Virus record (IMG/VR): IMGVR_UViG_3300027513_000046
Coordinates: 1-24,606 of that record
Length of the DNA: 24,606 bases
Direction: 5' to 3' (one strand)
Origin: a virus
Of the stretch, positions 2,834 to 24,606 are shown piece after piece. A model generated the notes under the pieces. That model had not been told where the DNA came from and searched no databases. It saw nothing but the letters and a program-made list of their open reading frames with translations. A program made the position numbers and the translations under genes. Positions within the stretch are counted from its first letter, which is position 1, and every line of letters begins with the position of its first letter.

Positions 2834-3475
2834 ATGCTGGCCAACGATTCAATTTTAGTCACGCCTGGTAGTGGTGCCACCGTCGCCACCCATCTGGTTA
2901 GTGGAAAAGAATACCCTGTCCACATTGAAGCACGCCACAGTGGTCATCTAATTGGTTCAGAACCTCTTTATTGCTACAACATTCCTTCGCAAGTCCATGT
3001 AAATACTGCCAACACTGTTCACTGGGATTTGTTCAATGCTCATGCCTCCTTGATTGTGAGGGTGGTGAGTATTATTCAGATTCCCAATGTTACTACGGGG
3101 GTGACTGGTATTGTATTTGATTGGCTGTTGGAACGAAGTTCTGCTGTAGGGACAGGTGGGACAGTTATTACTGCCTGGGAGCCTGATGAAAACGACACAG
3201 ACATTGATGCAGCTGTTACATGCCGTTCCAAACCTAGTGGTGGTGCCACTCAATCGACAGACTTGCGAAACTATTCGCTGTCCTCAGAAGAGACAAACGC
3301 TGCGACTATTATGGTGGCTGCATTGGGCGGATTGGAATTGATACCACCCGCCTTACAAATGATCAATGGAGGCAAGGGGATCACCTTACGCCAGAATAAA
3401 GGTCTTCGTTGTGTGCAGGTGACTCAGTCGGCCGCTGGGAATACTGGCTGGTTGATAACCATCATGGTTGAATGA
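2834..3475 (+). CDS. Virion structural protein, unknown
   Basis: A 213-aa beta-strand-rich protein with no recognisable enzymatic motif, signal peptide or membrane segment. The start 'SILVTPGSGATVATHLVSGKEYPV' resembles the N-termini of phage virion proteins that carry a 'tpGsGatvat..v.g..y' motif. The rest is alternating hydrophobic strands and Thr/Gly loops. It sits between two other putative structural genes and ends in an ATGA overlap with the next gene, so a virion role is inferred from context. The exact function is not known. Confidence 0.45.
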   Translation: MLANDSILVTPGSGATVATHLVSGKEYPVHIEARHSGHLIGSEPLYCYNIPSQVHVNTANTVHWDLFNAHASLIVRVVSIIQIPNVTTGVTGIVFDWLLERSSAVGTGGTVITAWEPDENDTDIDAAVTCRSKPSGGATQSTDLRNYSLSSEETNAATIMVAALGGLELIPPALQMINGGKGITLRQNKGLRCVQVTQSAAGNTGWLITIMVE

Positions 3476-4470
3476 GCCTCATCCTTTTATTTGCAGCCTC
3501 CACAGATCAGATCCTCATACCTGACACAGCAACAGCCACAGGTGCCGCTCATAATCCAACTATTGTCGGAGATGGTTCTGCCGATTTTGCACCAGCTACC
3601 GCAACAGCCACAGGTGCCGCTTGGAACCCAACTGTTTCAGGAGAAGGTGGTGTTAATTTTGGACCAGCTACTGCCACTGCGACAGGACAAGCACATGACC
3701 CGACAATCTCACCAACGGGTGATGCTGTTTTTGCTCCAACCACGGCAACTGCTACTGGACAAGCTTCAGATGGGTCCTTTACCGCATCGGGTGAGGCTCC
3801 CTTTGCGCCGGCCACGGCATTGGCCACAGGAACCGCTCACACAGCCTCCATAGATGCCACAGGATCGATTGATTTTGCTCCCACGACTGCGACTTCCACC
3901 GGGGCAGCCCACGGCCCCACAATCGAAGCCACGGGCGATACTGTGCTGGTCCCTGCCACTGCGACTGCGATTGGTGCTGCTCACAATCCTGCTATCTCAA
4001 TAGAAGGAGGTCCTCAGACTTTTCCAGTCGGTGTTGCTACCTCGACCGCTTCGGCCCTTAATCCTGCCATTACTGGCAGTGGCACCGCCACGTTCGCTGT
4101 CTCCCTGGCAACGGCTGGCGGTGTATCCTTCGATCCAATCTTCGAAACAGGATCGGTGGAATTTCCAGTTGGTTTAGCAACAGCTATTGGGCAAGCGATG
4201 GATTCGATCCTGGATGGATCAGGGGGGGTCGTGTTTGCTGTCACCACTGCCGGTGCCACGGCTCAGGCTTTTGACCCTGACATTCAATTGGTTGAAATGC
4301 TGTCCTTGTCCGTCGAGACTGCTATTGCGTCAGCCGTGGCCCATGATTGCAGTGTATTCTTTACTGGATATATTCTTAGACCTATTTCAATAGGATTTGT
4401 TCCAATATTTTCATTTTCTAAAAAGCGATTGATCACAGCTCGTAAATTCAAAAGACGGCCACTTTTATGA
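3472..4470 (+). CDS. 24-residue tandem-repeat Ala/Thr-rich virion protein
   Basis: A 332-aa protein. Residues 20-290 consist of about 11-12 copies of a 24-residue repeat whose core is 'TATGxAxxPxI...G...FxPATA'. The first six or seven copies are regular; the later ones have drifted (for example TSTASALNP, TAIGQAMDS). It has no Cys-rich, collagen or coiled-coil pattern; alternating short hydrophobic strands suggest a beta-structured rod. The C-terminus is basic (SKKRLITARKFKRRPLL). It overlaps the genes on both sides by 4 nt (ATGA), so it is a real member of the operon. A fibre, head decoration or adhesin-like structural role is inferred. I cannot assign a family. Confidence 0.6.
   Translation: MSLILLFAASTDQILIPDTATATGAAHNPTIVGDGSADFAPATATATGAAWNPTVSGEGGVNFGPATATATGQAHDPTISPTGDAVFAPTTATATGQASDGSFTASGEAPFAPATALATGTAHTASIDATGSIDFAPTTATSTGAAHGPTIEATGDTVLVPATATAIGAAHNPAISIEGGPQTFPVGVATSTASALNPAITGSGTATFAVSLATAGGVSFDPIFETGSVEFPVGLATAIGQAMDSILDGSGGVVFAVTTAGATAQAFDPDIQLVEMLSLSVETAIASAVAHDCSVFFTGYILRPISIGFVPIFSFSKKRLITARKFKRRPLL
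3529..4341 (+). repeat. About 72-bp tandem coding repeat
   Basis: This is the DNA basis of the 24-residue protein repeats: units beginning near 'acagccacaggtgcc' recur every 72 bp. Third-codon-position differences between copies show that the repeats are old and under protein-level constraint. Copies near 3529-3990 keep exact 72-bp spacing. Later copies vary by one codon. Confidence 0.75.
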
Positions 4471-18691: not shown

Positions 18692-19102
18692 ATGAGTATG
18701 AAAAAATTAGCATTGTTATTCGTCGCAGCCGCAATCCTGATCGTGCAGGCTGCTCCCATCAAATCCAACCGCTCGCCTCACAAGAGAACGCAGACGGTTC
18801 AAACCCAAACAGTCATTCAGTTGACCTTTGTGAATGACACCCCGTTCAACGTCTCGGCGCAATACGGATTGGAATTTGTCATCCCTCCGGGGATCAACAA
18901 GTATCAATTCCTTTTCAATCCGAATACGATTTTGGTGTTTGGAATCTTTCAGGGAGATGACAAACCCCACTACGGTTACGGATCAATTTATCCAGATCAG
19001 ATGACAGGGAACAACCAGGTGGTTGTTTATCATAGTGGGACTGACAGTTATCACATCCAATTTGATAACTACTTCAACGCACCGTTTGAAGTGCTGCCTT
19101 AA
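18692..19102 (+). CDS. Small secreted protein, unknown
   Basis: A 136-aa protein with a clear Sec signal peptide (MKKLALLFVAAAILIVQA, likely cut after VQA). A basic segment follows (KSNRSPHKR), then a beta-rich domain (VIQLTFVNDTPFNVSAQYGLEFVIPPG, GYGSIYPDQMTGNNQVVVYHSGTDSYHIQF). It is the last gene of the rightward late operon, 6 nt after the hub gene. A second Met at 18698 could also be the start. It has no lipobox and no recognised enzyme motif. A periplasmic or outer-surface role, such as exclusion of other phages or a tail accessory, is possible, but I do not recognise the family. Its stop overlaps that of the convergent gene by 4 nt. Confidence 0.55.
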   Translation: MSMKKLALLFVAAAILIVQAAPIKSNRSPHKRTQTVQTQTVIQLTFVNDTPFNVSAQYGLEFVIPPGINKYQFLFNPNTILVFGIFQGDDKPHYGYGSIYPDQMTGNNQVVVYHSGTDSYHIQFDNYFNAPFEVLP

Positions 19103-19671
19103 ATTTCAATAATCTTTCCAGTGGCCAGATTGTTATTGTGTGTAACAAAGATAATTTGCAGGCCCATATCTTTGGACAACTGCTCCAGCATCGACCGCAC
19201 GTTGTCCTGATAGTGTGCGCTCACAAACTTAAAGGGCTCATCCATCACCACCACCTTGCTTAGGCGAGGTCGGTGCAGGACTAGACAAGCAATCCTCAGT
19301 GCAAAGGCTGCTACATCGACCACCCCCCCTCCAGAAGCGGTTAGAGGATCGACATTGAGATCACCACGAAGGAATCGGAGGTGGGCTTCGGTGCGTCCTC
19401 GCTTGCGTTCAAACTCGATGTGGAACTGGTAGGGATCGTCTTCGAATACGGTGCTCAGACAGGACGACACCACCTCTGAAATCTTCTTGTGGGCTCGCTG
19501 CTGGACTGCCTGGGCCAAGTGCTGGAGGATCTCTTGAGCGTCCTGGGTCCGCTTGAGGGTATTCTCAGCCTTGATCAATTCCTTCTCCTCCCTTTTTATG
19601 GATTCTTTCAGAGAGTTGAGTCGGAAGGACAACTCGTGGATGTATGAATCTTCGAAGGCAAAGTCGATCAT
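19099..19671 (-). CDS. Rad50/SbcC-like ATPase, C-terminal half
   Basis: A 190-aa protein equal to the C-terminal lobe of an SMC/Rad50-type ATPase. A coiled coil (residues 10-65) leads into the lobe (FHIEFERKRGRTEAHLRF). An ABC-signature-like 'TASGGGVVDVAAFALR' is at 111-126. Walker B is 'SKVVVMDEPF', with Asp144-Glu145. The H-loop 'IIFVTH' ends at His178. It lacks Walker A, which is found 3 kb upstream in the operon (22513-23568); the two should pair to build one ATP site. Between the halves lies the Mre11/SbcD-like gene. The upstream coiled-coil gene (19717-19971) is in the same frame, separated by one TAG and 15 sense codons. No strong ribosome-binding site precedes ATG 19671. Confidence 0.82.
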   Translation of the reverse strand: MIDFAFEDSYIHELSFRLNSLKESIKREEKELIKAENTLKRTQDAQEILQHLAQAVQQRAHKKISEVVSSCLSTVFEDDPYQFHIEFERKRGRTEAHLRFLRGDLNVDPLTASGGGVVDVAAFALRIACLVLHRPRLSKVVVMDEPFKFVSAHYQDNVRSMLEQLSKDMGLQIIFVTHNNNLATGKIIEI

Positions 19672-19716
19672 ATCCGCACTGTCATGTTTTGAGAGGCATC
19701 CTCGATTCCCTGGGTG

Positions 19717-19971
19717 CTACGAATCATCGGTTTTCCATTTCTTTTCGTATTCCCGCATCGCCTTATCGAATTCCTTCTCAGCTTTGTCTTTTTTCGACTG
19801 CAAGTCTTCGAGCAGTGCCTTTGCTTCCTTAAGGGTCTTGCAGTCGTATTCATTCTTGAGTTGAATAATGAGCTGCTCGTAGGCACCTTTCGCCCGCTGT
19901 GCTTCGGACTTGGCTGAGTCAACATCCTTCTTCAGTCGGCGATACAGTTCTTCTGAAACTATTTCTGACAT
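19717..19971 (-). CDS. Coiled-coil protein, possible central segment of split Rad50
   Basis: An 84-aa, highly charged, fully helical protein (LYRRLKKDVDSAKSEAQRAK, LIIQLKNEYDCKTLKEAKAL, DKAEKEFDKAMREYEKKW) with heptad-like spacing. It has no membrane segment or enzyme motif. It overlaps the preceding gene by 13 nt. It ends in TAG, and the same frame stays open through to the C-terminal ATPase half. Its length plus the coil of that half is close to the about 170-residue coil in the N-terminal half. So it may serve as part of the antiparallel Rad50 arm, either as a separate protein or through suppression of the TAG. The role is inferred. Confidence 0.6.
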   Translation of the reverse strand: MSEIVSEELYRRLKKDVDSAKSEAQRAKGAYEQLIIQLKNEYDCKTLKEAKALLEDLQSKKDKAEKEFDKAMREYEKKWKTDDS

Positions 19972-20333
19972 ATTTTAATAATGTCTTCCAATGTTGTTAC
20001 GAGAATCCAAACACGCTTCCTTAGGACGTTCCGTTCCGTCTCAACTTCTTTGTGGTGACGGACAAACTCTTGGAAGTTGTCAAGCAAGTCATCGGACATC
20101 GTGCTTTTGCCGTCGTTGAATTCGTTCTTAATTCCTGATTCAATAGCTGCTAGGGTTTGTTTCAACCTCGAAACTCTGTCAGCTTCAGTGGCGTCTTCCT
20201 GAATCCGTTTTATTAGTTGTTCGACATCATGTCCAGGTGGTTGAGACCCGTCTGATCCCGGAGGTCGCCAACCCAACATCGAGTTGGCGACAGTCTCTCC
20301 AACTTCATTCAACCATTCGGCAGCGGGCTTCAT
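19959..20333 (-). CDS. Hypothetical small phage protein
   Basis: A 124-aa, mostly helical protein beginning 'MKPAAEWLNEVGETVANSML', with a Gly/Pro-rich segment (GWRPPGSDGSQPPGHD). Helical stretches follow (DVEQLIKRIQEDATEADRVS..., FQEFVRHHKEVETERNVLRKR). No known domain is recognised. Its start overlaps the previous gene by 4 nt (ATGA) and its end overlaps the coiled-coil gene by 13 nt, which supports it as a translated operon member. Confidence 0.6.
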   Translation of the reverse strand: MKPAAEWLNEVGETVANSMLGWRPPGSDGSQPPGHDVEQLIKRIQEDATEADRVSRLKQTLAAIESGIKNEFNDGKSTMSDDLLDNFQEFVRHHKEVETERNVLRKRVWILVTTLEDIIKICQK

Positions 20334-20578
20334 ATTTTCCTAAAACATCTTTGGAATTCCTCATCAGGCATGAGGGTTGTTTGCAAACTGTCCACGGCAC
20401 AGATGGCCCACTCACCCGTTCTGGCTTTCACACCCGAGGCCGCTCTCCACACATCTTTATCTTCAGTCGGTGTGAAGATATTCGCGACCCACTTCGGGAT
20501 GTATTCCGCTTCAGGATCAAACTGCCACGCTGCCACGTTGATGTGAGTGCCAAAAGTTGCTTGGTGGGTAGCAATCAT
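20330..20578 (-). CDS. Small phage protein, 'GEWAI..VDS' type
   Basis: An 82-aa protein: 'FDPEAEYIPKWVANIFTPTEDKDVWRAASGVKARTGEWAICAVDSLQTTLMPDEEFQRCFRKI'-like layout (given here by its key segments: IPKWVANIF, GEWAICAVDS, MPDEEFQRCF). It recalls the small phage proteins with 'P..i......GdwiirgvdGe.yPc..diFe.tY', but with drift from that consensus. Function unknown. It starts in an ATGA overlap with the 25-aa microprotein and ends in an ATGA overlap with the next gene. Confidence 0.55.
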   Translation of the reverse strand: MIATHQATFGTHINVAAWQFDPEAEYIPKWVANIFTPTEDKDVWRAASGVKARTGEWAICAVDSLQTTLMPDEEFQRCFRKI

Positions 20579-20652
20579 CGTTCTATTATTAGATTTACAA
20601 CAATCAATGTTATAAAACAGCCAATAAACATTCCAAATACCAAATCACTCAT
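20575..20652 (-). CDS. 25-aa single-span membrane microprotein
   Basis: This 25-codon reading frame fills the gap between two operon genes. Its ATG (20652-20650) overlaps the upstream TGA as ATGA, and its own TGA (20577-20575) overlaps the downstream ATG as ATGA. The product starts MSDLVFGMFIGCF and ends VVNLIIER. It is almost one uninterrupted hydrophobic helix with an acidic N-terminus and a charged C-terminus. Perfect coupling on both sides argues for real translation. Function is unknown; phage operons do contain small single-span proteins of this kind. Confidence 0.65.
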   Translation of the reverse strand: MSDLVFGMFIGCFITLIVVNLIIER

Positions 20653-20870
20653 GTTTTGAACCCCGGTGGCTGTTTCGGTTCCTGGATCAGTTCCAGCTCA
20701 AAGTCGGAATGCCACTTTTCACCTAAATCATGAGCCCATGTGACTAAATAAAAAGTCGTGCCCCTGCGAATGCAGATCCCAGTGATGATCCCTTGCTGGT
20801 CACCGACAGCAAATTTCACCTTCTGTCCGATTGAAAAGTTAATCAGTTGCTTCCAGACTTCTTCAGTCAT
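20649..20870 (-). CDS. Small SH3-like beta-barrel protein, unknown function
   Basis: A 73-aa protein with a short N-terminal helix and then 'FSIGQKVKFAVGDQQGIITGICIRRGTTFYLVTWAHDLGEKWHSDFELELI'-type strands; its key parts are IGQKVKF, GIITGICIR, YLVTWAHD and FELELI. This is the compact pattern of small SH3-like phage proteins ('G..V.f...g..G.V.gi..r......Y.V.w......h...ElEl'). It overlaps the genes on both sides by 4 nt. The molecular role is unknown; a binding or adaptor function is usual for this fold. Confidence 0.6.
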   Translation of the reverse strand: MTEEVWKQLINFSIGQKVKFAVGDQQGIITGICIRRGTTFYLVTWAHDLGEKWHSDFELELIQEPKQPPGFKT

Positions 20871-21055
20871 AGTGGTTGATACTTAAAAGTCAAAGTTGCT
20901 GGAACTAAATCTGGTGTGACTTGTTTATGGTAGACGTGCAAAAGGGTGGGATACCTCTCACCTATATGCCCTATGTCAAACATGAAAGGAAGCCCATGCG
21001 AGCCAATGCTGACATAGACTTTCATCTTCCTTACCCGTTTAGCTTTGTTCTTCAT
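20867..21055 (-). CDS. Small hypothetical protein
   Basis: A 62-aa protein with a basic start (MKNKAKRVRKMK), then 'VYVSIGSHGLPFMFDIGHIGERYPTLLHVYHKQVTPDLVPATLTFKY' type strands; key parts are SIGSHGLPF and PATLTFKY. No known family is recognised. It overlaps the stop of the Mre11-like gene by 4 nt (ATGA) and the next gene by 4 nt, so it is likely translated. An internal Met at residue 11 is an alternative start. Confidence 0.5.
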   Translation of the reverse strand: MKNKAKRVRKMKVYVSIGSHGLPFMFDIGHIGERYPTLLHVYHKQVTPDLVPATLTFKYQPL

Positions 21056-21957
21056 TTTATCGCCTCCAATATTATCTGTTTTGTTTCCTCGTCCATGTCG
21101 GCTTTGCGCAGATGGTTTTCCACTGCCTCACGGAAGTTCAGCCCGTGCTCGCCCAGTTCTTGAAGTTGCTCAATAAAGGCTTGCATATCAATAGGCACGT
21201 TCTTGCGTTCCTCTGGCTTCTCGTGGAACACATCCCCTGAAGTGTCCAGCTCTTTCCTTTTAATGGAACCATCACTGTAGATAAATCCAACAGAAGGTTT
21301 ATATTTGATTTCATCAGACTTGCGTCGAATAAAAGTCCCACAGTTCAGAACAGTCGTCCCTGTCTTAAGGTTTTTTAAGAAGCCTTCATGGTTGTCCCCA
21401 AACACCGCAACACCATAATCTTTCAGAGGCTTCATAAATTCGACTAGGTGTGCTTCTGCTGGCGCACCAGGATAGCCAGATTTTACTGTCCAACAGTATT
21501 GGTGAATGAGGGCAATCTGAGGAGCATTTTTCCGACGTGCTCGGGGTGGTGTGATCTTTTCGTTCCAACCAAAGCCATAAACAGACATTTCATGCACTGT
21601 AAACGGACAATTAGGAGTCAGGTTTAGGATCCTACCTGTTTCCACCAGCACACCGTAACCGCTGCGGTGCATATGGTCCATCCGATGGTTTGGAAGGTCA
21701 TGCTGTCCAGCCACACAGAGGCACCTTTCAGGGAGGTGTTCCAAGGCAAAGTTAATTAGTTCTGGTGGTGGATTCCACTTATCAAAAATATCACCAGCAA
21801 TCAGGACAGGGAATTTGGGATGCGGGCAAAGATCCCTTACCTGTTGCAGGTATCCAGCCTGCACGTCCAACCAGTCCTTGTCAGCACGGCAAGCGGGAGC
21901 AGTCAAAGACAGGTGCAAGTCCGCTATTGCTATTGCTATAGGAGACGGTGCTTTCAC
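21052..21957 (-). CDS. Mre11/SbcD-like metallophosphoesterase nuclease
   Basis: With GTG 21957 as start the protein has 301 aa. The calcineurin-like motifs are in order: Asp13-x-His15 (IADLHLS), Asp56 (AGDIFDKW), His86-Asp87 (GQHDLP, with Gln in place of the usual Asn), His152 (LIHQYCW), and Asp188/His190 (FGDNHEGF). This is the nuclease partner of Rad50/SbcC; both ATPase halves are in the same operon. The ORF extends upstream to ATG 22125 through a hexanucleotide repeat that would add 56 residues of alternating Val and mainly Glu or Arg. That is not a normal nuclease N-terminus, so I prefer the GTG at the repeat edge. A GAGG lies 8 nt before that GTG. Confidence 0.85.
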   Translation of the reverse strand: MKAPSPIAIAIADLHLSLTAPACRADKDWLDVQAGYLQQVRDLCPHPKFPVLIAGDIFDKWNPPPELINFALEHLPERCLCVAGQHDLPNHRMDHMHRSGYGVLVETGRILNLTPNCPFTVHEMSVYGFGWNEKITPPRARRKNAPQIALIHQYCWTVKSGYPGAPAEAHLVEFMKPLKDYGVAVFGDNHEGFLKNLKTGTTVLNCGTFIRRKSDEIKYKPSVGFIYSDGSIKRKELDTSGDVFHEKPEERKNVPIDMQAFIEQLQELGEHGLNFREAVENHLRKADMDEETKQIILEAIK

Positions 21958-22125
21958 GACCTCGACCTCGACCCTGACCCTGACCACGACCCTGACCTCG
22001 ACCCTGACCTCGACCATGACCTCGACTTCGACCTCGACCCTGACCTCGACTTCGACCACGACCCTGACCTCGACCATGACCCTGACTTCGACCCCGACTT
22101 CGACTTCGACCTCAACCCCGACCAT
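21958..22125. repeat. Hexanucleotide (GACNNN)28 tandem repeat
   Basis: Twenty-eight consecutive 6-bp units. The first triplet is GAC in 27 of 28 (one AAC). The second is always pyrimidine-rich: CTC, CCT, TTC, CAC, CAT or CCC. On the minus strand all three frames are open across it, encoding Val-x, Ser-x or Arg-Gly type dipeptide runs. The minus strand also carries repeated GAGG/AGGG motifs resembling Shine-Dalgarno sites. It lies exactly between the stop of the upstream gene and the conserved part of the Mre11-like gene. A shorter hexamer run (GCTATT-like, three units) is nearby at about 21923-21940. Confidence 0.9.
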
Positions 22126-22157
22126 TCAAACCCAATTTGTAGAATAACAGCGTTCAT

Positions 22158-22505
22158 CTATTTCTGAGAGCGGGGGAGTTTACAATCAAAGATAACAGCA
22201 TCAATTATTGAATCACGCCCAATCACGACTTTACTGTCGTCAGGATATGGCTCGACTTCATTGAACTTGCCTTCGGACACTGCTTGGGCAAAACGCCCGT
22301 CATCGGCAATCCACGCAGCATCTTCAAGGACGAGTTCCTGCGGATAGACTGCAACCAGTCTTCCTGTGAAGTGGTGTGTCACCGTCCGAATGAAGTAGCC
22401 CTTTCCGATTTGATAAGGATGACTTGAAGTTGACTGGTTTTGATTCCCAAACAAGGCAGCGATTTCCCGTGCTTCTTTGATTGTTAGTTCTTCGACGTTC
22501 TTCAT
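22158..22505 (-). CDS. Conserved phage/bacterial protein of unknown function ('TGRLVAVYPQELVLEDAAWIAD' type)
   Basis: A 115-aa protein starting MKNVEELTIKEAREIAALFG at ATG 22505; upstream in-frame codons overlap the ATPase gene and are not needed. The core segments 'HPYQIGKGYFIRTVTHHFTG', 'RLVAVYPQELVLEDAAWIAD' and 'VVIGRDSIIDAV' with the ending 'LPRSQK' make up a conserved pattern I know from many uncharacterised phage and bacterial proteins. It is beta-rich and acts as a single small domain. It sits 7 nt after the N-terminal ATPase half. Function unknown. Confidence 0.7.
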   Translation of the reverse strand: MKNVEELTIKEAREIAALFGNQNQSTSSHPYQIGKGYFIRTVTHHFTGRLVAVYPQELVLEDAAWIADDGRFAQAVSEGKFNEVEPYPDDSKVVIGRDSIIDAVIFDCKLPRSQK

Positions 22506-22512
22506 ACTTTTA

Positions 22513-23568
22513 TTATCTAATTGGGTTGTGACATAAAGGACAGAGTTTTCCCTTCGTGTTTTTCTCAAACATTTTCTCAGCATGTTCCAGCGCAGTGCCA
22601 GCAGTTTCAATTCGTGTGAATCGTTCACTCGCTTGTTCAATGATCTGTTCCAGCCCTTCAATTTGCAGATCGAGATCGTGCCAAATGTTAAACGATTTTT
22701 CTACTGAGGAGAAATCTGGCGGAGGTCGAGAAGCCTTTTCCCGCTCACTGAGATCGATGAGAACTGACTCAAGAGCAGTCGTGGCCTGTTGAGTATCAAG
22801 GGCGAGTCGTAGTCGAGTGAGAACATCCTCGCCATCTGCGCCCTTCTCTCCCAGTAGACTCGCTTGCTGACGAAGCTGATTTGCGTTCCTTCCGAGTGTG
22901 ACCAGTTGATTGCAAGTTTCTTCGGCATTTAGAAATCTTTCGTTCGCTGCCTTTAATTTTTTAAACTCTTCGATCCGATCCTGCTGTGGCTTCAGTTGCT
23001 CGTATTCCTTCTTTACCTCTTCGAGACGTTCATGGCAAAGGGTCTTTCTTTCCTGGGCTTGTCGGACGGCCGAGGAAATATTCGAGAGAGTTGTATCGAT
23101 GACGGAGAGATCCACCACGGCATTGAGACGACGCGAGACTTCGCCGGCTGTTTCGTTAAACCAAAAAGGAGAGTCGTGCTGGGACTGGAAATTGATTTCG
23201 TTGACGTTGAGCAGTTTGACGATGTCTTGTGGCACCCCTTGCCCGAATGCTTTGAGTTCCTCTCCGTTCAGTTCGTAGGTGTTGAGACCCGAGGTCCCTT
23301 TGATACGGGTGATGTCGTGGGAAAGATGATTGTCTCCAGTCTCCTTGGCAGTTTGGCAGACAGTCAGAATGACTTTCGTTTTCTTGGCACCCTCCCGAAT
23401 GAATTCGTCGCCTCCGAGATCGTTCAAACACACCCAGCGAAGTGCCCGCAGGATCGAAGACTTGCCTGCATCGGTGGGACCCTTCAGACTGGTAATCGTT
23501 TTGGAGAAATCGATGGTGATCTCCTCGTGCCCTTGGAAATCAACCAGTTTTATCGCGACCAATCGCAT
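22513..23568 (-). CDS. Rad50/SbcC-like ATPase, N-terminal half with zinc hook
   Basis: A 351-aa protein. Residues 1-150 are the N-terminal lobe: 'MRLVAIKLVDFQGHEEITIDF', Walker A 'GPTDAGKSS' (30-38; Lys36, Ser37), and a Q-loop region 'INFQSQHDSPFWF' (125-137). Residues about 165-340 are coiled coil with two breaks (GEKGADGED; SRPPPDF). The protein ends at a CxxC half-hook, 'CPLCHNPIR' (Cys343, Cys346). In complete Rad50/SbcC a second coil and the C-terminal lobe would follow; here a stop does, and that lobe is encoded 3 kb away (19099-19671). Hook Cys pairs bind zinc to dimerise molecules. It is the first gene of the leftward operon, with ribosome-binding site AAGGG 3 nt before the ATG. Confidence 0.88.
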   Translation of the reverse strand: MRLVAIKLVDFQGHEEITIDFSKTITSLKGPTDAGKSSILRALRWVCLNDLGGDEFIREGAKKTKVILTVCQTAKETGDNHLSHDITRIKGTSGLNTYELNGEELKAFGQGVPQDIVKLLNVNEINFQSQHDSPFWFNETAGEVSRRLNAVVDLSVIDTTLSNISSAVRQAQERKTLCHERLEEVKKEYEQLKPQQDRIEEFKKLKAANERFLNAEETCNQLVTLGRNANQLRQQASLLGEKGADGEDVLTRLRLALDTQQATTALESVLIDLSEREKASRPPPDFSSVEKSFNIWHDLDLQIEGLEQIIEQASERFTRIETAGTALEHAEKMFEKNTKGKLCPLCHNPIR

Positions 23569-24358: not shown

Positions 24359-24606
24359 ATGAACCGAAAAATGCCGATTGATCCCAACGAAGTGTTCCCC
24401 CAGGTCGAAAACATGCTCTACTCCCTCGCGTGGAGCACAGCCAAAAAGTATCCAGTCACTTTTGAAGAAGCGAGGTCCGAGGCTTACTTCGCCTTCATGA
24501 AAGCCTGCACGGAATACAGCAGGGCCAAATCCAAAGGCGGGAAGTTCTCTTCCTGGTGCTACTTCAAAACCTGGACCCATTTGAAGACGTGGATCACCAA
24601 GCGAAC
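24359..24606 (+). CDS. Sigma-70 region-2-like protein, 3'-truncated
   Basis: The frame runs from ATG 24359 to the window end with no stop (82 codons seen). After 'MNRKMPIDPNEVFPQVEN' comes 'LYSLAWSTAKKYPVTFEEARSEAYFAFMKACTEYSR', then 'GGKFSSWCYFKTWTHLKTWITKR'. This matches sigma-70 region 2, in which 'A.KY......DL.QEg..gl.kA...y....g.kFssy.y..i...' covers core binding and -10 recognition. AGGAAAG precedes the start at 11 nt. A phage sigma-like protein could redirect host RNA polymerase to phage genes. The DNA-binding region 4 would lie beyond the window, so a full sigma factor cannot be confirmed. Confidence 0.65.
   Translation, partial: MNRKMPIDPNEVFPQVENMLYSLAWSTAKKYPVTFEEARSEAYFAFMKACTEYSRAKSKGGKFSSWCYFKTWTHLKTWITKR

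Follow-up and report, generated by a model that had tools for sequence, protein, structure and literature searches.

The stretch of viral DNA considered here (the window: all 24,606 bases of virus record IMGVR_UViG_3300027513_000046, a fragment of a genome) carries on its minus strand a run of genes that very probably encodes a phage Mre11-Rad50 (SbcCD-like) DNA-end-processing complex in which Rad50 is not one chain; judged from sequence, this is the best overall explanation. Read from 23568 to 19099, the order is the N-terminal half of Rad50 (N-half), a small gene, an Mre11-like gene, four small genes, an 84-residue two-helix gene (the hairpin) and the C-terminal half of Rad50 (C-half; Table 1). 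A sister contig, IMGVR_UViG_3300009609_000035 (40,278 bases), has the same genes, with 99.99% identity across the 10,091 bases compared. An earlier note on the window had proposed a Rad50 of two or three parts, with Walker A, coil and hook in one gene, the signature, Walker B and H-loop in another, and the Mre11-like gene and small genes between them. The limits of both genes are exact, their motifs are conserved and the gene order was confirmed; the proposal as a whole is well supported, the split, the terminal hook and the hairpin gene being conserved over dozens of phage contigs.

Table 1. Features of the split Rad50 locus (positions are those of the window).
Feature	Position	Strand	Basis
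Rad50 N-half, 351 aa: ABC N-lobe (Walker A, Q-loop), long helical arm, C-terminal zinc-hook CXXC	22513..23568	-	sequence, Pfam, PDB profile search, model
Walker A GPTDAGKS, N-half residues 30-37	23458..23481	-	sequence; G30, G35, K36 invariant
Zinc-hook half-site CPLC, N-half residues 343-346, five residues before chain end	22531..22542	-	sequence; C343, C346 invariant
Mre11/SbcD-like nuclease gene	21052..22125	-	Pfam Metallophos 1.3e-6; family profile against Mre11 structures 3e-9
Hexamer repeat array, consensus CGACCT, 27.8 copies, 73% matches	21957..22123	not assigned	5' end of Mre11-like open reading frame
Hairpin gene, 84 aa, two helices, conserved upstream of C-half; probable third subunit	19717..19971	-	locus comparison, profiles, model
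Rad50 C-half, 190 aa: long N-terminal helix, signature, Walker B, H-loop	19099..19671	-	sequence, PDB profile search, model
ABC signature SGGGVVD, C-half residues 113-119	19315..19335	-	G116, D119 invariant; aligned with Rad50 signature
Walker B VVVMDEP, C-half residues 140-146	19234..19254	-	D144, E145 invariant
Small gene between N-half and Mre11, not a cassette member	22158..22502	-	only 2 distinct loci
Four small genes between Mre11 and hairpin (62, 73, 82, 124 aa), not cassette members	19959..21055	-	locus comparison

Each half contains the motifs of one lobe of an ATP-binding cassette (ABC) head of the Rad50/SbcC kind. The N-half is an ABC-type N-lobe with Walker A, a Q-loop (Q130) and a long helix, and the C-half is a C-lobe with the signature (SGGG, residues 113-116, compared with SGGE in the aligned Rad50), Walker B (D144 and E145) and the H-loop (H178). 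Pfam assigns the N-half to AAA_23 (5e-12), the best PHROGs matches are family 16465, 'exonuclease', for the N-half (3e-23) and family 15167, 'ATPase', for the C-half (3e-27), and profile searches of the Protein Data Bank (PDB) match Rad50 at 9e-13 and 1e-8, respectively. The residues G30, G35, K36, Q130, C343 and C346 are invariant across 51 N-halves (alignment A1, 51 of the 55 listed rows, with L003, L047, L061 and L062 omitted; Microbacterium phage Magritte, whose N-half has no CXXC, is not among the rows), as are G116, D119, D144 and E145 across 57 C-halves (alignment A2, 57 of 58 rows, with L066 omitted).

An ABC fold is predicted for each half. The AlphaFold2 model of the N-half (mean predicted local distance difference test score, pLDDT, 87.6; predicted template modelling score, pTM, 0.44) consists of a head, a helix spanning residues 154-279, a break at PPPD (282-285), a second helix (287-338) and the hook turn. 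Because the hairpin and C-half of the window share a reading frame with one TAG between them, they could be modelled together by reading through it (pLDDT 88.4, pTM 0.59); in this model, helices 2-42 and 47-85 flank a turn of four residues, and a link of low confidence leads on to a helix of 72 residues and the C-lobe. In Foldseek searches, the Rad50 C-terminal chains 9a9j_B, 1f2u_B, 1f2t_B and 1ii8_B occupied ranks 1-4 for the C-half model; N-terminal chains of SMC heads (5h66_A, 1xex_A) headed the list for the N-half model, with Rad50 chains 9a9j_A, 1f2u_C and 1f2u_A at ranks 10-12.

The Mre11-like gene between the halves has a putative active site that departs from the canonical one. Canonical calcineurin-like nucleases carry the motifs DxH, GD, GNHD, H and GHxH. 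In 50 Mre11-like rows (alignment A4, 50 of 57, seven omitted), D12, H14, D55, H85, H151 and H189 are invariant, and a conserved GQHD replaces GNHD and GDNH replaces GHxH, which indicates a variant metal site. Since the open reading frame (ORF) opens with a hexamer repeat that makes up its first ~57 codons, translation probably starts from the GTG at 21957, past the repeat. An Mre11/SbcD partner gene lies near the Rad50 halves, with the exception of Magritte, where it is not nearby. In one locus (L012, 5581-7037), the Mre11-like gene is divided between ORFs of 208 and 113 aa, and the gap separating them may be an insertion; in Bacillus phage vB_BboS-125 it (L002, 11247-12227, equal to NC_048735.1, 22423-23403) falls in a gap of the public annotation.

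When the C-half was used to scan the viral collection, 73 loci were recovered. Iterated profile searches of 78 sources (a figure that includes duplicates) detected the N-half and the hairpin in 69 sources each, Mre11 in 70 and the C-half in 76. Counting each distinct C-half once, adding the genome-collection loci and omitting L001, L003, L004 and L005 (own or duplicate records and Magritte) gives 73 distinct loci, to which the following counts refer. The same split order, which the earlier note had suggested looking for in other phages, is common: N-half, Mre11, hairpin and C-half follow one another on one strand in 55 of the 73. Eleven loci hold a partial cassette; in nine of these, the C-half or the rest of the cassette lies at a contig end, and the other two are L007, in which 1.4 kb of upstream sequence is present and no hairpin was found, and L089, probably an unrelated ATPase to judge from its 28% identity over 65 residues. 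The remaining seven have other orders: N-Mre11-C (L067, L069), N-C-Mre11 (L002), N-hairpin-C-Mre11 (L066), N-Mre11-C-hairpin (L072), C-N (L086) and N-hairpin-C (L087). The full cassette occurs in 7 of 12 genome-collection loci, and a viral scan with the C-half of L086 found no relative. Distance correlations among the four genes (0.47-0.81) were computed without a control gene and are not used here.

The putative hook motif, which the earlier note had placed at the very end of the N-half, is found there almost throughout: a CXXC is present in 55 of 56 distinct N-half ORFs and lies near the chain end in all but two of these (L061 and L062, with 34-42 residues beyond it). The N-halves of Microcystis phage Mvi-JY20, Tunturiibacter phage Tunturi_5 and the uncultured phage LR745208 likewise have it near the end. 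The single chain with an antiparallel arm running through the hook is absent, the halves being separate genes both in the window and in the surveyed phage loci.

Five whole phage records (vB_BboS-125, Magritte, Mvi-JY20, Tunturi_5 and LR745208) contain one N-half, one C-half and one Mre11 gene each. In Tunturi_5, the C-half lies at 19 kb, and Mre11 and the N-half at 125-128 kb, i.e., ~100 kb away. A full-length Rad50 elsewhere in the genome would speak against the split; an AAA_23 search of these five records for a second Rad50-type gene gave none above the cut-off, only the N-half passing, and in Tunturi_5 it gave nothing at all, a silence that carries little weight because AAA_23 misses even the N-half there. 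On the 40-kb sister contig, only the N-half exceeded the AAA_23 cut-off, with one weak P-loop match below it. Mvi-JY20 has the exact cassette order, with all genes annotated as hypothetical, next to genes for a UvsX-like recombinase, SSB, primase and a RusA-like resolvase. An AP2-domain gene stands between the N-half and the hairpin in vB_BboS-125 (L002, 9407-9979), and iscB stands between the C-half and Mre11 on a Cetobacterium plasmid (L118, 5639-6892); such mobile-type genes inside the cassette may have split or shuffled it.

The earlier note had treated the 84-residue gene as an additional coil that could complete the second arm of Rad50. It is more than a mere extra, being a regular member of the cassette found in 63 of the 73 distinct loci; a second arm of equal length, by contrast, does not fit the longer members. 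Of 62 loci, 43 have hairpin and C-half overlapping or no more than 60 nt apart, 11 have them 61-300 nt apart and eight have larger gaps of up to 1,250 nt. Together, the hairpin (84 aa) and the C-half (190 aa) amount to 274 aa, compared with 269 aa past the hook in T4 gp46, an agreement that is suggestive, no more. Searches of solved structures with the hairpin gave only weak generic coils (best keratin, at 0.019), and as a tblastn query in phages it gave nothing at E 0.1. Its profile matches in two of the five whole phage records at E up to 1, in one of them inside a longer open frame; in vB_BboS-125, gp34 stands in the expected place and has the hairpin pattern by eye (E 0.12). When divergent hairpins from plasmids and distant phages (alignment A8) were compared with the window hairpin family as profiles, the match reached 96.3% (E 1.7e-9) with the turn aligned, and the nine permuted-plasmid hairpins (described below) alone reached 95.0%. 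The controls gave 4% for the C-half, at most 1.5% for 30 column shuffles, 37% for the reversed profile and at most 26% for N-half arm segments. The A8 hairpins were chosen by position and pattern, so this comparison is not blind, whereas the profile scan of loci is. Another alignment (A6) was set aside, as lone hairpin rows were misplaced in it.

Relatives on plasmids show the same parts joined differently. A search of plasmids with the C-half matched 18 records, and the match from Alteromonas is a single ORF in which residues 5-144 correspond to the C-half and 200-532 to the N-half, ending CEKCGQEITRH. Used as a query, this permuted protein matched 21 plasmid records and, at E 1e-10, no phage record. 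Eleven loci, picked from the 21 records for spread over genera, were examined (Alteromonas, Aeromonas, two from Pseudomonas, Vibrio, two from Bosea, Variovorax, Acidiphilium, Rhizobium and Methylorubrum extorquens AM1). All 11, on large bacterial plasmids, encode a permuted single chain, the C-half followed by the N-half and arm, with the last CXXC near the end; in Acidiphilium, the chain continues for ~60 residues past it. In the records examined, 11 of 11 ORFs that match both the N- and C-half profiles have this C-N order, a count that distant canonical forms would escape, since the profiles miss the C-lobe of T4 gp46. In four genomes of the genome collection, a search for the permuted ATPase gave one weak match, a C-half. 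The Mre11 profile matches the next gene in 8 of the 11 permuted loci, two of them weakly. Directly upstream of the permuted ATPase, a small ORF with the hairpin pattern by eye is present in nine loci; in blind scoring with the hairpin profile, this ORF was the best of its locus in eight (E 1.4e-4 to 4.1), including four at E <=0.0075 (L125 among them). Another ORF scored higher in L123, and L119 and L128 gave no match. Two Bacillales plasmids carry an Mre11-N-half fusion, and there the C-half and a small helical gene remain separate genes. Position and profile comparison suggest that the plasmid and phage hairpins are related.

The system is read as a real, conserved variant of the Mre11-Rad50 kind, whose head is made from halves without a link through the arm. 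The split, the motifs, their conservation and the permuted fusions appear from the sequences themselves, and homology and fusion make it very likely that the N- and C-halves form one head. The N-half would supply lobe I (Walker A, Q-loop) and a one-strand helical arm ending in a zinc-hook half-site; the C-half would supply lobe II (signature, Walker B, H-loop) and a helix expected to pair with the base of the arm. The halves would assemble non-covalently into one ATPase head, as they would covalently, and in reverse order, in the plasmid relatives. Two heads would close on ATP and gate the Mre11-like nuclease, and two arms would join via zinc at their free ends. The hairpin would most likely be a third subunit, packed against the arm or the C-half helix and substituting for the absent return strand. 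It is probably a stoichiometric subunit; a role as the return strand itself is a more tentative proposal, with a rather less than even chance. In a wider proposal, for which the chance is nearly even, phages and large plasmids share a branch with an open arm: no link through the arm ever joins the lobes, separate hairpins (perhaps several, one per ~44-residue unit) supply the return strand, and split, Mre11-fused and permuted forms occur. The complex would have a role in phage recombination and replication.

Several observations weigh against this reading, and most of them concern the arm and the hairpin. Arm length was measured from a conserved Asn to the hook in 61 distinct N-half ORFs that have a CXXC within ~40 residues of the end and do not start at a contig edge; it falls into clusters of 148-156 (12 arms), 188-207 (38) and 238-246 residues (6), with five longer. 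Self-similarity within 49 arms peaks at a lag of 44 residues (z 12.3) and is also high at lags of 20 (10.3) and 47 (9.5), so that the arm seems to lengthen by about 44-46 residues at a time, with no corresponding change in a partner. These steps are followed neither by the coil of the C-half (rho -0.05, by listed ORF starts) nor by the length of the hairpin (rho 0.21, p 0.13); the hairpin and C-half helix therefore cannot match a whole long arm one-to-one. Pairing between two N-half arms is one possibility, and binding of several hairpins to a single arm is another. The hairpin profile finds no gene in 10 of the 73 distinct loci; four of these (L013, L014, L056, L088) are cut at the C-half and one (L089) is the probably unrelated ATPase, which leaves L002, L007, L067, L069 and L086. 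The profile is also silent, at E up to 1, in three of the five whole phage records, and has no match at E 1 in five of six plasmid loci (L113-L117 of L113-L118). Moreover, the N-half of Magritte is the sole one of the 56 without a CXXC, the pTM of both models is modest, the N-half of Tunturi_5 is found by the A1 profile and not by AAA_23, and an Alkaliphilus plasmid (L117, 6953-8824, minus strand) has beside its split cassette a second AAA ATPase ORF of 623 aa that matches the N-half profile at 3e-10.

The alternative that survives best in the light of these points is that the hairpin is not part of Rad50 at all and is an accessory factor, such as a chaperone, a DNA-binding protein or a regulatory subunit, that merely travels with the operon. 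The unmatched arm steps would agree with it, as would the eight loci in which the hairpin lies more than 300 nt from the C-half, its place behind the C-half in L072 and the failure to find it in L007, L067, L069 and L086. Nonetheless, such a factor is rather unlikely given how the gene is placed: it is upstream of the C-half in 62 of the 63 distinct phage and genome loci having both, a small patterned gene adjoins the C-half or stands one small gene away on the Bacillales plasmids, and the upstream ORF of the permuted ATPases is in most cases the best profile match of its locus. The association thus outlasts the rearrangement of the other genes.

It is very improbable that each half is an ATPase-like protein in its own right with a task of its own. 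Their genes are dispersed in Magritte and Tunturi_5; however, each half lacks the motifs that the other has, both occur once per record in the five whole phages, and both belong to one chain in all 11 permuted loci. The prospects are poorer still for a degenerate, non-functional remnant of Rad50, to which the deviating metal-site motifs of the Mre11-like protein might point, since the catalytic motifs of both halves are invariant over 51 and 57 diverse sequences and the substituted Mre11 positions recur as conserved residues in the consensus of that family. Finally, the common frame of hairpin and C-half in the window, with its one TAG and 45-nt gap, gives scarcely any credence to a single gene broken by sequencing error or recoding whose pieces are one protein in life, because the two frames differ in 49 of 62 loci, which makes hairpin and C-half separate proteins, while TAG, TAA and TGA all end the four genes and the N- and C-halves are separated by Mre11 or, in Tunturi_5, by ~100 kb; stop-codon recoding and frameshifting were rejected on reading frames and stop usage.

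The remaining small genes of the window were rejected as cassette members, each occurring in at most four distinct loci. Elsewhere in the window, a 72-base repeat (2.2 copies, 3529-3686) lies within a 332-aa ORF (3472-4470) that reads as a low-complexity repeat protein, and an ORF running off the end (24359-24604) resembles, by eye only, a sigma-factor region.

With Rad50/SbcC and Mre11/SbcD, including T4 gp46/gp47, the system shares the lobe motifs, the helical arm, the CXXC motif of the hook and the Mre11-like partner. It differs in that T4 gp46 is one chain of 560 aa with CPTC at 288, whereas here the chain stops at the hook motif, another gene encodes the C-lobe, and the locus has a hairpin gene as well. 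The ATPase domain of Pyrococcus furiosus Rad50 (1f2t/1f2u, 1ii8) likewise has N and C lobes as separate chains that form one head, and these structures take ranks 2-4 for the C-half model and 11-12 for the N-half model; we take their separate chains to be a laboratory construct and not natural separate genes. PHROG families 16465 and 15167 are the best matches of the halves, yet they are two differently named families, not joined as one Rad50.

Among published systems, Mre11/Rad50 fusions of Mimivirus and others provide examples of rearranged Mre11-Rad50 genes in viruses and plasmids (PMC3175470). One of these fusions, from Bacillus phage 0305phi8-36 (A7KV18), is said in the same account to be without one P-loop segment (PMC3175470), and the passages on fusions there describe no separate C-half. 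Among viral fold matches of the N-half model, A7KV18 ranks second. In a term search of the paper on vB_BboS-125 and its kin (PMC6375668), the words SbcC and ATPase were absent. The parts of PMC7824862 and PMC12153180 that treat SbcC/Rad50 and unusual SMCs make no mention of a split. Among the matches listed in the open-access literature, with subscription journals and preprints outside this scope, no description of a split, separate or permuted Rad50/SbcC was found, and the phrase 'split Rad50' occurs in no paper of the open-access literature searched.

Rad50 and SMC proteins are modelled as a single chain that reaches the tip and returns, so that head motion powered by ATP travels along a closed arm. 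With a natural Rad50 that has a separate return strand, or halves joined in reverse, the purpose of the covalent arm could be tested, be it DNA tethering, signal transmission or assembly. The separate parts also give separate handles for cloning and reconstitution. The finding offers a possible explanation for a published oddity, namely a viral Mre11/Rad50 fusion reported without one P-loop segment, and gives names to genes now labelled hypothetical, ParA-like or exonuclease. Taken together, the split and back-to-front forms suggest that the motor may be built without the covalent link long assumed between its halves.

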